Assembly (NCBI GenBank): GCA_903896425.1
Contig: CAITXW010000496.1
Span: 1 to 34,287, forward strand
Direction of reading: 5' to 3'
DNA from: an uncultured beta proteobacterium
GTDB taxonomy: Bacteria; Pseudomonadota; Gammaproteobacteria; Burkholderiales; Burkholderiaceae_C
Length of the DNA stretch: 34,287 nucleotides
The notes under the pieces: model-generated
What the model was told of the DNA's origin: nothing
Databases searched by the model: none
The model's input: only the letters and a program-made list of their open reading frames with translations
Translations under genes and position numbers: made by a program
In this document: piece by piece, positions 25,834 to 33,948 of the stretch
Layout of the letters: the number at the start of each line of letters is the position of its first letter
Position numbering within the stretch: position 1 is the stretch's first letter

Positions 25834-25867
25834 ACTATAAGAAGGTTATATGACAGTGATGTGACAT
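25834..25867 (-). promoter_or_regulatory. Pho box and -10 for pstS
   Basis: Minus strand ATGTCACATCACTGTCATATAACC: TGTCA repeats exactly 11 bp apart (plus-strand TGACA at 25851 and 25862); TATAGT -10 at 25834-25839 about 11 nt downstream. Confidence 0.85.
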
Positions 25868-25923
25868 CTTTGCGGTTTTGCAAACGGCCGATGGATCGCA
25901 AGCCCGGCCTTTCAGACATGCAG

Positions 25924-25957
25924 CTGTCACGTTTTCGTCAAAAAACGACCCTATTCT
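25924..25957 (+). promoter_or_regulatory. Pho box and -10 for ppk2
   Basis: CTGTCACGTTTTCGTCAAAA: TGTCA (25925) and CGTCA (25936) 11 bp apart; TATTCT -10 at 25952-25957. Confidence 0.7.
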
Positions 25958-25991
25958 TCCCCCTGTAGGAACTTCGACTCGGGGGGCAGGC

Positions 25992-26849
25992 TTGACTGCA
26001 ATCAATGACGACTTGGTCCAGCGTATCCGACGCGACCTGGATGACAGCTACGACGAGGAGCTGGAACTGGAGCTGGAAGACCGAAATGTCGACGAACTCG
26101 CGCAAAGTTCGCTCGACACGGCGTCCAGGCAATACAAGGAAAGCCGTCGCCGGTATTTTCGTGAACTGTTCCGGATGCAGGGTGAACTCGTCAAGCTGCA
26201 GGACTGGGTGGTCAAGACCGGGCACAAGGTCGTGATCCTTTTTGAAGGCCGCGACGCGGCCGGCAAAGGCGGTGTCATCAAGCGCATCACCCAGCGCCTG
26301 AATCCGCGCGTCTGTCGCGTGGCGGCCTTGCCGGCGCCGAACGCACGCGAACAAACCCAGTGGTATTTTCAGCGCTACGCAGCCCATCTGCCGGGGGCCG
26401 GTGAGATGGTGCTGTTCGACCGCAGCTGGTACAACCGGGCCGGTGTCGAGCGGGTGATGGGCTTTTGCTCTGATGAACAATACGAGGAGTTCTTCCGAAC
26501 CGTCCCCGAATTCGAAAAGATGCTGGTGCGCTCGGGCATCCAGCTCATCAAGTACTGGTTCTCCATCTCGGACGAGGAGCAGCATCTGCGCTTCATGGGC
26601 CGCATCCACGATCCGCTCAAGCAATGGAAGCTCAGCCCGATGGACATGGAGTCCAGGCGGCGCTGGGAGGAGTACACCAAGGCCAAGGAAATCATGCTGG
26701 AGCGGACCCACATTGCGCAGGCACCCTGGTGGATGGTTCTGGCCGTGGACAAGAAGAAGGCCCGGCTCAATTGCATTCACCACCTGCTGCAACAGATTCC
26801 CTATGGCGAAATCGAACATCCGGCCATCGTGTTGCCGGAAGTCTATTGA
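25992..26849 (+). CDS. ppk2: Polyphosphate kinase 2 family protein
   Basis: VVILFEGRDAAGKGGVIKRITQRLNPRVCRVAALPAPNAREQTQWYFQRYAAHLPGAGEMVLFDRSWYNRAGVERVMGF. TTG start at 25992 inferred because the promoter lies inside the longer ORF (25878). Confidence 0.93.
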   Translation: MTAINDDLVQRIRRDLDDSYDEELELELEDRNVDELAQSSLDTASRQYKESRRRYFRELFRMQGELVKLQDWVVKTGHKVVILFEGRDAAGKGGVIKRITQRLNPRVCRVAALPAPNAREQTQWYFQRYAAHLPGAGEMVLFDRSWYNRAGVERVMGFCSDEQYEEFFRTVPEFEKMLVRSGIQLIKYWFSISDEEQHLRFMGRIHDPLKQWKLSPMDMESRRRWEEYTKAKEIMLERTHIAQAPWWMVLAVDKKKARLNCIHHLLQQIPYGEIEHPAIVLPEVY

Positions 26850-26859
26850 AGGCTCGTCC

Positions 26860-26904
26860 AGGTCACCAAGCCGTCACGAAACCGTCACGAAACCTTTGTA
26901 CGCT
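26860..26904 (+). promoter_or_regulatory. Triple PhoB half-site array and -10 upstream of the fasciclin gene
   Basis: Three consecutive 11-mers: AGGTCACCAAG (26860-26870), CCGTCACGAAA (26871-26881), CCGTCACGAAA (26882-26892); TACGCT -10 at 26899-26904. Confidence 0.7.
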
Positions 26905-27513: not shown

Positions 27514-29019
27514 ATGCAAGATGGAACACGCTTGGCGGCTGTCGATTTGGGATCGAACAGCTTTCGCCTTGAAATTGGACGCATTGAACACGACCAGTTT
27601 TACCGCACCGAATACTTGAAGGAAGCCGTGCGCCAGGGCAGCGGCCTCGACGACGAGCGCAAGCTGACGCCCGCGGCCATGCAGCGCGGCTGGGACTGTC
27701 TGGCCCGCTTTGGCGAACGGTTGGCGGGCTTCGACAACGCCGAGGTGTCGGCCGTGGCGACGCAGACCTTGCGCGAAGCGCGCAACCGCGACGAGTTCCT
27801 GCACAAGGCCAGCGCCGTCTTGGGCTTTCCGATCGACGTCATCTCGGGTCGTGAAGAGGCGCGCCTGATCTACCAGGGCGTTGCCCACTCGCTGCCACCG
27901 AGCGACGAGCGCCGCCTGGTCGTCGATATTGGCGGGCGCTCCACCGAACTCATTCTCGGCAAGGGATGGAAACCGAAATTGATGGAGTCCTACCGGGTCG
28001 GCAGCATTGCCTGGTCAGCCAAGTACTTTGCGGACAACCAGTTCACCCGACATGCCTTCCAGATGGCCGAGATCGCCGCCAAGGCGGTGCTCGATGAGGC
28101 TCTCAATGCCTACCGCCGCGATGACTGGGACGTGGCCTATGGTTCAGCCGGAACCGTCGGCGCTGTGGGCGACATATTGGCCGCTGCCGGCTGGCCCACC
28201 GGCAGCGTCAACCGGGAAGGACTGGACTGGCTGCAGGACAAGCTGATCAGCGCGAAAAGCGCCGATCGCGTGCGGCTGATTGGCCTCAAGGACGACCGGC
28301 GCGCCATCATCGGCGGTGGCTTGAGCGTCTTGCGCGCCGTCTTTGACCTGCTGCAGATCGATCAGATGCATCTGACGACCGGCGGTCTGCGTCATGGCCT
28401 GCTGTTCAACCTGATGGGCAGTGCCCCCGATCAGAGCGATGTGCGCGCCAAATCAGTTCAAAGGCTGGTCAGCAAGTTCGGAACCGATGCGGTGCAGGGC
28501 TTGCGCGTGGCGAAGGTGGCCCTCGAGCTGTTTGCGCAGCTGCATTCGACGCTGAAGTCAACGAACCCGAAAGACGAGCGGCAGGCCCGAAAGCTCGCCT
28601 GGGCTGCGCAGTTGCATGAGATCGGCAGCCGCATCTCGCACAGCGACTACCACAAGCATGGCGCCTACATCCTGGACAACTCGGATGCCCTGGGCTTCTC
28701 CCTGCCCGAACTGCACCGGCTCAGCCAACTGGTATTGGGGCATCGCGGCAAGCTGCGCAAGCTCGAGGTCGACTTCGACGACGCGGAGTTCATCGCGCAG
28801 TTGCTGACCCTGCGTCTGGCCGTCATCCTGTGCCACGCCCGACGCGACCCTGAGCTGAGCGGCCTGCAGCTGATGTGCAGTGCTGACCACGACAAAACCT
28901 TTGTCATCGCGTGCCGCAGTGCCTGGGCACAGTCCTATCCGCAGTCGGCCCATCTGCTGCGCGAAGAGGTGCTGGCATGGCAGAAGACGCCATGGACGCT
29001 GGCCTTTTCTCCTGACTGA
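27514..29019 (+). CDS. ppx: Exopolyphosphatase (Ppx/GppA family)
   Basis: LAAVDLGSNSFRLEIGRIE; VISGREEARLIYQGVAHSLP; RRLVVDIGGRSTELILG; C-terminal HD-like region; 501 aa. Confidence 0.95.
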   Translation: MQDGTRLAAVDLGSNSFRLEIGRIEHDQFYRTEYLKEAVRQGSGLDDERKLTPAAMQRGWDCLARFGERLAGFDNAEVSAVATQTLREARNRDEFLHKASAVLGFPIDVISGREEARLIYQGVAHSLPPSDERRLVVDIGGRSTELILGKGWKPKLMESYRVGSIAWSAKYFADNQFTRHAFQMAEIAAKAVLDEALNAYRRDDWDVAYGSAGTVGAVGDILAAAGWPTGSVNREGLDWLQDKLISAKSADRVRLIGLKDDRRAIIGGGLSVLRAVFDLLQIDQMHLTTGGLRHGLLFNLMGSAPDQSDVRAKSVQRLVSKFGTDAVQGLRVAKVALELFAQLHSTLKSTNPKDERQARKLAWAAQLHEIGSRISHSDYHKHGAYILDNSDALGFSLPELHRLSQLVLGHRGKLRKLEVDFDDAEFIAQLLTLRLAVILCHARRDPELSGLQLMCSADHDKTFVIACRSAWAQSYPQSAHLLREEVLAWQKTPWTLAFSPD

Positions 29020-29028
29020 ACGCCGGTC

Positions 29029-29050
29029 GGCGGGCCCCGCGCGGCCCGCC
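29029..29050. terminator. GC-rich hairpin after ppx (weak terminator candidate)
   Basis: GGCGGGCC-N6-GGCCCGCC 8-bp stem; no clear T-tract. Confidence 0.4.
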
Positions 29051-29052
29051 AT

Positions 29053-29089
29053 TTGACTGAGGAAAACATAATGGTATAAACTGTATACC
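29053..29089 (+). promoter_or_regulatory. Sigma70-type promoter with overlapping palindrome upstream of the H1-like gene
   Basis: TTGACT (29053-29058)-N16-TATAAA (29075-29080); palindrome GGTATA-AACTG-TATACC (29073-29089) covers the -10. Confidence 0.65.
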
Positions 29090-29112
29090 TCGTTTTTCCA
29101 AGGACAGGCAAC

Positions 29113-29646
29113 ATGGTCACGACAGCAAACGCATTCACACCGGCGGCACCGGCAAAGACCACCGCAGCCGCTCCCGCCAAGGCGGCGGCATCTGCAAGAT
29201 CACCAGCACCAGCCAGGAAACCAGCCCGCAAAGCTGTTGCGAAAAAGCTTACGAATAAACCGGCGCCGATCGCAAAACCGGCGGCAAAAAAAGTCGTCAA
29301 GGCGCTTGCCGCAAAGCCTGTCAAGGCGTCGGTTCCAGCAGCGGCCGCACCCGCTGTCAAAGCACTTGCAAAACCCGTGCTCGCGAAAGTGGTCAAGGCA
29401 AAGGCGGCAAAGCCCGTCAAGGAAAGGAAGCCCAAGCTGGTCCGTGACAGTTTCACAATGCCGAAGGTCGAATACGGGGTGCTCGCCGAGCTCAAGCAGC
29501 GCGCCGGCAAGCTTGGCAGCCCGGTCAAGAAAAGCGAGTTGCTGCGAGCCGGAACCAAGGCCCTGGCCGCCATGGCCGACAACGCATTCCTGGCTGCGCT
29601 GAAAGCCGTCCCGGCCATCAAGACCGGGCGTCCGAGCAAGGACTGA
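29113..29646 (+). CDS. Histone-H1-like Lys/Ala/Pro-rich protein with a C-terminal RHH-like domain
   Basis: About 105 residues dominated by A/K/P/V, then RDSFTMPKVEYGVLAELKQRAGKLGSPVKKSELLRAGTKALAAM, which reads as strand-helix-helix. Confidence 0.75.
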   Translation: MVTTANAFTPAAPAKTTAAAPAKAAASARSPAPARKPARKAVAKKLTNKPAPIAKPAAKKVVKALAAKPVKASVPAAAAPAVKALAKPVLAKVVKAKAAKPVKERKPKLVRDSFTMPKVEYGVLAELKQRAGKLGSPVKKSELLRAGTKALAAMADNAFLAALKAVPAIKTGRPSKD

Positions 29647-33914: not shown

Positions 33915-33948
33915 AGTCTAGGCACGTCGTGTGACGGCTCAGTGACAA
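33915..33948 (-). promoter_or_regulatory. Pho box and -10 for the alkaline phosphatase operon
   Basis: Minus strand TTGTCACTGAGCCGTCACACGACG: TGTCA/CGTCA 11 bp apart (plus-strand TGACG 33932, TGACA 33943); TAGACT -10 (plus 33915-33920). Confidence 0.75.

Follow-up and report, generated by a model that had tools for sequence, protein, structure and literature searches.

AlgP of Pseudomonas aeruginosa, a DNA-binding protein with an H1-like basic tail, localizes to polyphosphate (polyP) granules and spaces them (PMC9239181). In Cupriavidus, PhaR keeps its own gene and the phasin genes repressed until it is drawn off by PHB, and PhaM of Cupriavidus necator is proposed to join PHB granules to the nucleoid (PMC9049629). 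Our literature search found AlgP as the only granule-spacing protein, and a betaproteobacterial counterpart was not found.

The window (the whole 34,287-nucleotide stretch of DNA analyzed, from an uncultured beta proteobacterium) encodes a 177-aa protein whose family can be compared with each of these systems. As in AlgP, the family protein carries a long, A/K/P-rich, basic, disordered tail, but the tail of AlgP is made of C-terminal KPAA repeats, whereas that of the family is usually N-terminal and shows no tidy repeat; the globular parts, set side by side here by description, also differ, that of AlgP being a 124-aa helical N-terminal domain and that of the family being ribbon-helix-helix (RHH)-like (PMC9239181). 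A further difference from AlgP is that the family gene has a dedicated operator, described below. The layout in the family is similar to that of PhaR in Cupriavidus necator, an autorepressor that is encoded beside storage-polymer genes and for which release by the polymer has been proposed (PMC9049629). PhaR, however, represses phasin genes, whereas the main putative target of the family protein is its own gene, and the PhaR DNA-binding domain was not detected in the window protein in Pfam and NCBIfam searches up to an E value of 1. Finally, the storage granule-nucleoid link proposed for PhaM is similar to the role that we propose for the family, but PhaM, which has phasin-like properties, works on PHB granules, and the family protein is without such a domain (PMC9049629).

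The protein family and its predicted DNA-binding domain

The family is widespread, unannotated, and undescribed. Its gene is present in 30 of the 37 genomes of the genus and in 69 of 300 genomes of the order (40 of the 140 genera sampled), and a few members were also found outside the order. Copies that retain the operator reside on plasmids of Comamonas and Paraburkholderia, and the annotation of plasmid copies, if any, is hypothetical protein only. On a plasmid of Comamonas aquatica, a family copy and its operator lie directly after an arsenic-resistance operon (L285:3845-4294); arsenate is a phosphate analogue. In another genome (G022), a second family copy is situated directly 3' of ppk2 (L054:1913-2372) and has neither the operator nor the C-terminal TGRP motif.

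In the window, the open reading frame spans positions 29113 to 29646 of the forward strand (ATG at 29113, with the stop codon ending at 29646) and encodes a basic H1-like tail, an RHH-like domain, and a C-terminal KTGRP motif. The tail, as delimited by composition and net charge, comprises residues 1 to 112 (29113 to 29448, forward strand), with 33% A, 20% K, 13% P, and 11% V and a net charge of +25, which bears out the H1-like A/K/P/V tail described in an earlier, sequence-only reading of this DNA. Comparison of relatives places the conserved domain in the C-terminal 65 residues of the protein. Profile searches of the window protein against Pfam and NCBIfam gave zero matches, and a search of PDB sequences with the family profile returned nothing meaningful. 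Among 90 relatives, the tail has a median charge of +0.18 per residue, and although its sequence and length vary, its basic, A/K/P-rich character is kept. Its position differs as well: in two relatives (L074 and L103) the order is the reverse of that in the window protein, the domain coming first and the tail lying C-terminal of it, and in two others (L073 and L101) tails flank the domain on both sides, so that the chemistry of the tail, not its place, seems to be what matters.

Within the domain, the near-invariant or invariant positions of the family alignments are those of the strand (DSFT.P), helix B (KKSE...RAG), and the C-terminal KTGRP. The last of these belongs to a segment consisting of a third helix and an IKTGRPxK tail (29590 to 29643, forward strand), in which the G and the R are invariant in 62 relatives (two alignments). 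The family KTGRPxK resembles AT-hooks in the GRP core, a resemblance only; AT-hooks usually have an R before GRP where the family has a T, and the AT-hook profile gave zero matches.

The RHH-like DNA-binding domain is predicted at 29446 to 29589 (forward strand), with the strand DSFTMP, a helix A, and a helix B bearing KKSELLRAG. When the family was compared by hhalign with 28 RHH_1 domains encoded in the same genomes, the score was 25.3 (probability, 59%; E value, 9e-5), against at most 12.4 for 40 column-shuffled decoys, and the strand, helix A, and helix B all aligned in register; the probability in the reverse direction was 26%, making the match one of moderate strength. Structure prediction, which the sequence-only reading had put forward as a check on its RHH assignment, returned an AlphaFold2 (AF2) monomer with an extended DSFTMP and helices at domain residues 13 to 28, 35 to 48, and 51 to 59 (mean pLDDT, 89), in strand-helix-helix order. 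A Foldseek search with two AF2 monomers yielded zero significant fold matches, a null result that is weakly informative because the RHH fold exists only as a dimer. Among 40 relatives, none reached a curated Pfam or NCBIfam cut-off, the best values being 0.0045 for VapB_antitoxin (one relative) and 0.086 for RHH_1 (two relatives).

The family has in common with RHH_1/CopG and VapB-type regulators (PF01402 and PF09957) the predicted strand-helix-helix order, a KSEL helix B in register, and a palindromic operator at its own promoter, the last recognized here by comparison. It differs from CopG-type proteins in having a helix A and turn that are about five residues longer, and from all of these regulators in its third helix, invariant GRP tail, and basic arm and in falling below every Pfam cut-off. 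We consider the domain likely to be an RHH domain: the in-register profile-profile match and the predicted order of strand and helices lend the original assignment moderate support, to which the fold library adds no match for the monomer.

An antitoxin of a toxin-antitoxin pair would account for some of these features, in that RHH antitoxins autorepress through palindromes and VapB_antitoxin heads the weak Pfam matches of one relative. A conserved small partner gene was not found beside the family gene at the loci examined, however, and the neighbors in the window are ppx and, on the other strand, an FtsX-like gene; we therefore rejected this reading, which we regard as extremely improbable.

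A putative operator that accompanies the gene

The promoter TTGACT-N16-TATAAA of the sequence-only reading stands at 29053 to 29080 on the forward strand. Its -35 element, TTGACT (29053 to 29058), retains TTGAC at the same distance in many relatives, and its -10 element, TATAAA (29075 to 29080), follows after a 16-bp spacer and lies within the operator; a promoter scanner called one sigma-70-like site at the same place, but read the spacer as 18 bp, ending at TAAACT. A GC-rich hairpin (29029 to 29050, forward strand; -19.6 kcal/mol) separates ppx from the promoter; it has no T run and may serve as a ppx terminator. Given the position of the hairpin, the family gene probably forms a transcription unit by itself.

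The palindrome reported over the -10, GGTATA-AACTG-TATACC, matches exactly at 29073 to 29089 and is not a product of chance: allowing one mismatch, there is a single match in the window and none in 100 dinucleotide-preserving shuffles, and a genome-wide search for further sites, as the sequence-only reading had suggested, found only one exact match in 3.55 Mb. The conserved element is nevertheless larger than this core. Comparison of upstream regions defines a putative 27-bp operator (consensus, AAACGRTATAAACTGTTTATAYCGTTT) at 29069 to 29095 that overlaps the -10 and can be written, from the aligned upstream regions, as the half-sites AAACGRTATAAAC-T-GTTTATAYCGTTT; its center of symmetry is T29082, which moves the axis first assigned, C29081, by one base. 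At symmetry center 14, 67% of pairs are complementary, compared with about 17 to 34% at centers other than 13 and 14. The copy in the window is among the less symmetric versions, and symmetry is perfect in some relatives (e.g., L101).

In aligned upstream regions, the operator always overlaps the -10 and usually ends about 10 to 25 bases before the start codon, and there is usually one per genome. Within the genus, a strict operator pattern occurs in 28 of the 30 genomes with the family gene and in none of the 7 without it, and 28 of the 32 distinct places that it matches are at a family gene (the reversed-pattern control gave 2). Beyond the genus, a matrix derived from genus members recovers the operator in 41 of 47 relatives, at an unchanged place in the promoter; the sites score above 9, and 174 kb of unrelated sequence reaches a maximum of 1.4, a background test that guards against circularity in matrices derived from the family itself. 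When a symmetric pattern was applied across the order, 29 of 65 genomes were positive, and its reversed control matched zero times. The operator accompanies the family gene both with and without an adjacent ppx.

Since copies of the gene on plasmids and among new neighbors keep the operator, the family protein likely binds its own promoter, and because the operator covers the -10, the effect of binding should be repression. Self-repression through the operator, as had been proposed for the palindrome, is strongly supported by these comparisons, in which the operator tracks the gene and not the neighborhood. The palindrome could instead be the operator of another regulator, with the family protein not binding it, since operators of foreign factors can stay conserved at one promoter and the link between protein and operator rests on sequence; that the site is missing from genus-mates without the gene, is kept on plasmids and in new neighborhoods, and is mostly single within a genome makes this alternative very unlikely.

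A role for the operator in ppx regulation was rejected, as loci without ppx keep the operator. Extra sites in the genus and order searches were few, and none were seen at ppx, ppk, or pst genes; a regulon over polyP genes is accordingly unsupported, and the family protein is apparently no direct regulator of those genes. The genus has four extra operator-like sites, three of which (G005:C170:108098 in L053, G006:C28:1738 in L051, and G006:C32:3626 in L052) precede homologous open reading frames of about 61 aa that have common (H/K)(V/I/T)VGMFAGSL-type motifs and zero Pfam matches. Judging from the placement of these sites, the small protein is probably a second target of the repressor, one whose sole convincing copies are in 2 of the 61 genomes searched. 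Elsewhere, a perfect 27-bp palindrome, AAACGATATAAACCGTTTATATCGTTT, lies away from the family gene (G021:C245:7005-7031; L050:4006), about 80 bp upstream of an open reading frame named by eye as a cation-diffusion-facilitator-like transporter. Two genomes (G256 and G228) have, besides the promoter site, an additional operator-like site about 0.1 to 0.2 kb downstream of the family gene (L282:1423 and L283:1200), and three family f8 genomes have operator-like sites at a conserved position (L278:1965, L279:1950, and L280:2007) adjoining genes that were named by eye as rsmG/mnmG and as chromosomal and parAB-like. In family f8, the family gene (checked in G092) is without a clear operator.

ParG-type proteins, which are RHH autorepressors, have a mobile basic N terminus, and the family protein might similarly be a partition-type adaptor, an RHH centromere-binding protein that positions DNA or granules together with a ParA/MinD ATPase. 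The sites beside chromosomal parAB in family f8 are in keeping with this, as is the ParA/MinD-like ATPase gene that adjoins the family gene in L147, L161, L164, and L197 (divergently in three of the four). Adjacent ParA genes are found, however, in only 4 of 94 loci and in 1 of 20 control loci, and none is present in the window; moreover, the usual single operator per genome is no iterated centromere. We judge a partition role unlikely.

Polyphosphate and phosphate genes near the family gene

In the window, the family gene closes a cluster of pst-pho, ppk2, fasciclin, and ppx genes. Its upstream neighbor is the exopolyphosphatase gene ppx (27514 to 29019, forward strand; PF02541, 4e-70; PF21447, 3e-35), and the same cluster includes the polyphosphate kinase 2 gene ppk2 (25878 to 26849, forward strand; PF03976, 1.6e-108; TIGR03707, above cut-off), the true start of which is probably downstream of 25941. 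Pho boxes are direct repeats with a period of 11 (PMC4415409), and Pho-box-like repeats occur in the window at 25839 to 25867, in the gap between pstS and ppk2; at 26860 to 26888 (forward strand), as a triple repeat that precedes the fasciclin-ppx pair; and at 33931 to 33948, upstream of phoA. From its sequence, the window looks like a Pho-regulon cluster; upstream of its own family gene, no Pho box was found.

The adjacency to ppx, which had already been pointed out, is real and turns out to be one case of a recurring link to polyP and phosphate genes. Among 60 relatives from beyond the genus, 31 have ppx, ppk1, or ppk2 no more than 9 kb from the family gene, versus 1 of 20 controls (Fisher p, 1.5e-4); at 3 kb, the counts are 22 of 60 and 0 of 20 (p, 9e-4). 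The controls are a small set of random regions of these genomes, the relatives are not statistically independent of one another, and the 31 were counted from a gene listing. Such neighbors recur in nine families and in at least five arrangements (ppx-gene-ppk1; gene-phoU-ppx; ppk2 and ppk1 on either side; ppk2 adjacent; gene then ppx; and gene then pst), and on a Paraburkholderia plasmid phoU is directly 3' of the family gene. About half of the order-level relatives are without a polyP enzyme within 9 kb, some of them with intact operators. Pho-box-like direct repeats lie upstream of 24 of 81 family genes versus about 6% of control upstream regions, and 19 of these 24 cluster 66 to 106 bases before the start codon. 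Because the link recurs, a polyP-associated role is likelier than a single adjacency would imply, and the genomic evidence supports the view that the family gene belongs to phosphate and polyP physiology.

A candidate tether between granules and chromosome

The reading that we prefer, at a probability of roughly 50%, is that the family protein is a phosphate-linked, autorepressed RHH protein with a polyP-binding tail that tethers polyP granules to the chromosome, as suggested by its gene neighborhoods and operator and by analogy with the systems described above. The protein would bind DNA as an RHH dimer and carry a long, disordered, basic tail, its expression may be under phosphate control, and its binding to the 27-bp operator that covers the -10 would repress its own promoter. 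The tail may bind both polyP and DNA, by which the protein would join polyP granules to the chromosome, and accumulating polyP would pull it off the operator, whereupon more protein would be made. Such a protein would be a one-protein counterpart of the logic of PhaR, a granule-titrated autorepressor, and of PhaM and AlgP as granule-nucleoid links.

Several points count against this composite: about half of the order-level relatives have no nearby polyP enzyme, the operator is not seen at ppx, ppk, or pst genes, the window copy has no Pho box, and a basic tail will bind polyanions of any kind and might act on DNA only. Its main rival is a plain phosphate-starvation nucleoid protein, likewise autorepressed and with no direct role in polyP, whose tail would coat or compact DNA in phosphate starvation and whose gene would adjoin polyP genes through common Pho regulation. 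The Pho-box-like repeats, the pst and phoU neighbors, the operators kept at loci without nearby polyP enzymes, and the combination of an H1-like tail with the GRP motif all agree with the nucleoid protein. The specific recurrence of ppx, ppk1, and ppk2, in varied arrangements across nine families, is nevertheless more than general Pho genes require, and we hold this rival to be possible but somewhat doubtful.

The granule tether also admits a stronger version, which we advance still more tentatively, as a rather doubtful one: a single protein would be both polyP sensor and granule tether, its tail binding or sensing polyP and thereby freeing the RHH domain from its own operator, and in some lineages the same operator would also control the approximately 61-aa GMFAGSL protein. 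If this were true, the amount of polymer would set the amount of the nucleoid-granule linker.

With a sharply defined operator and recurring polyP neighbors, the DNA-binding and granule hypotheses are both directly testable, and a 27-bp operator kept across the order and on plasmids makes the family a good case for how RHH proteins find their sites. More broadly, the family bears on how the number, spacing, and inheritance of polyphosphate granules are governed in bacteria.
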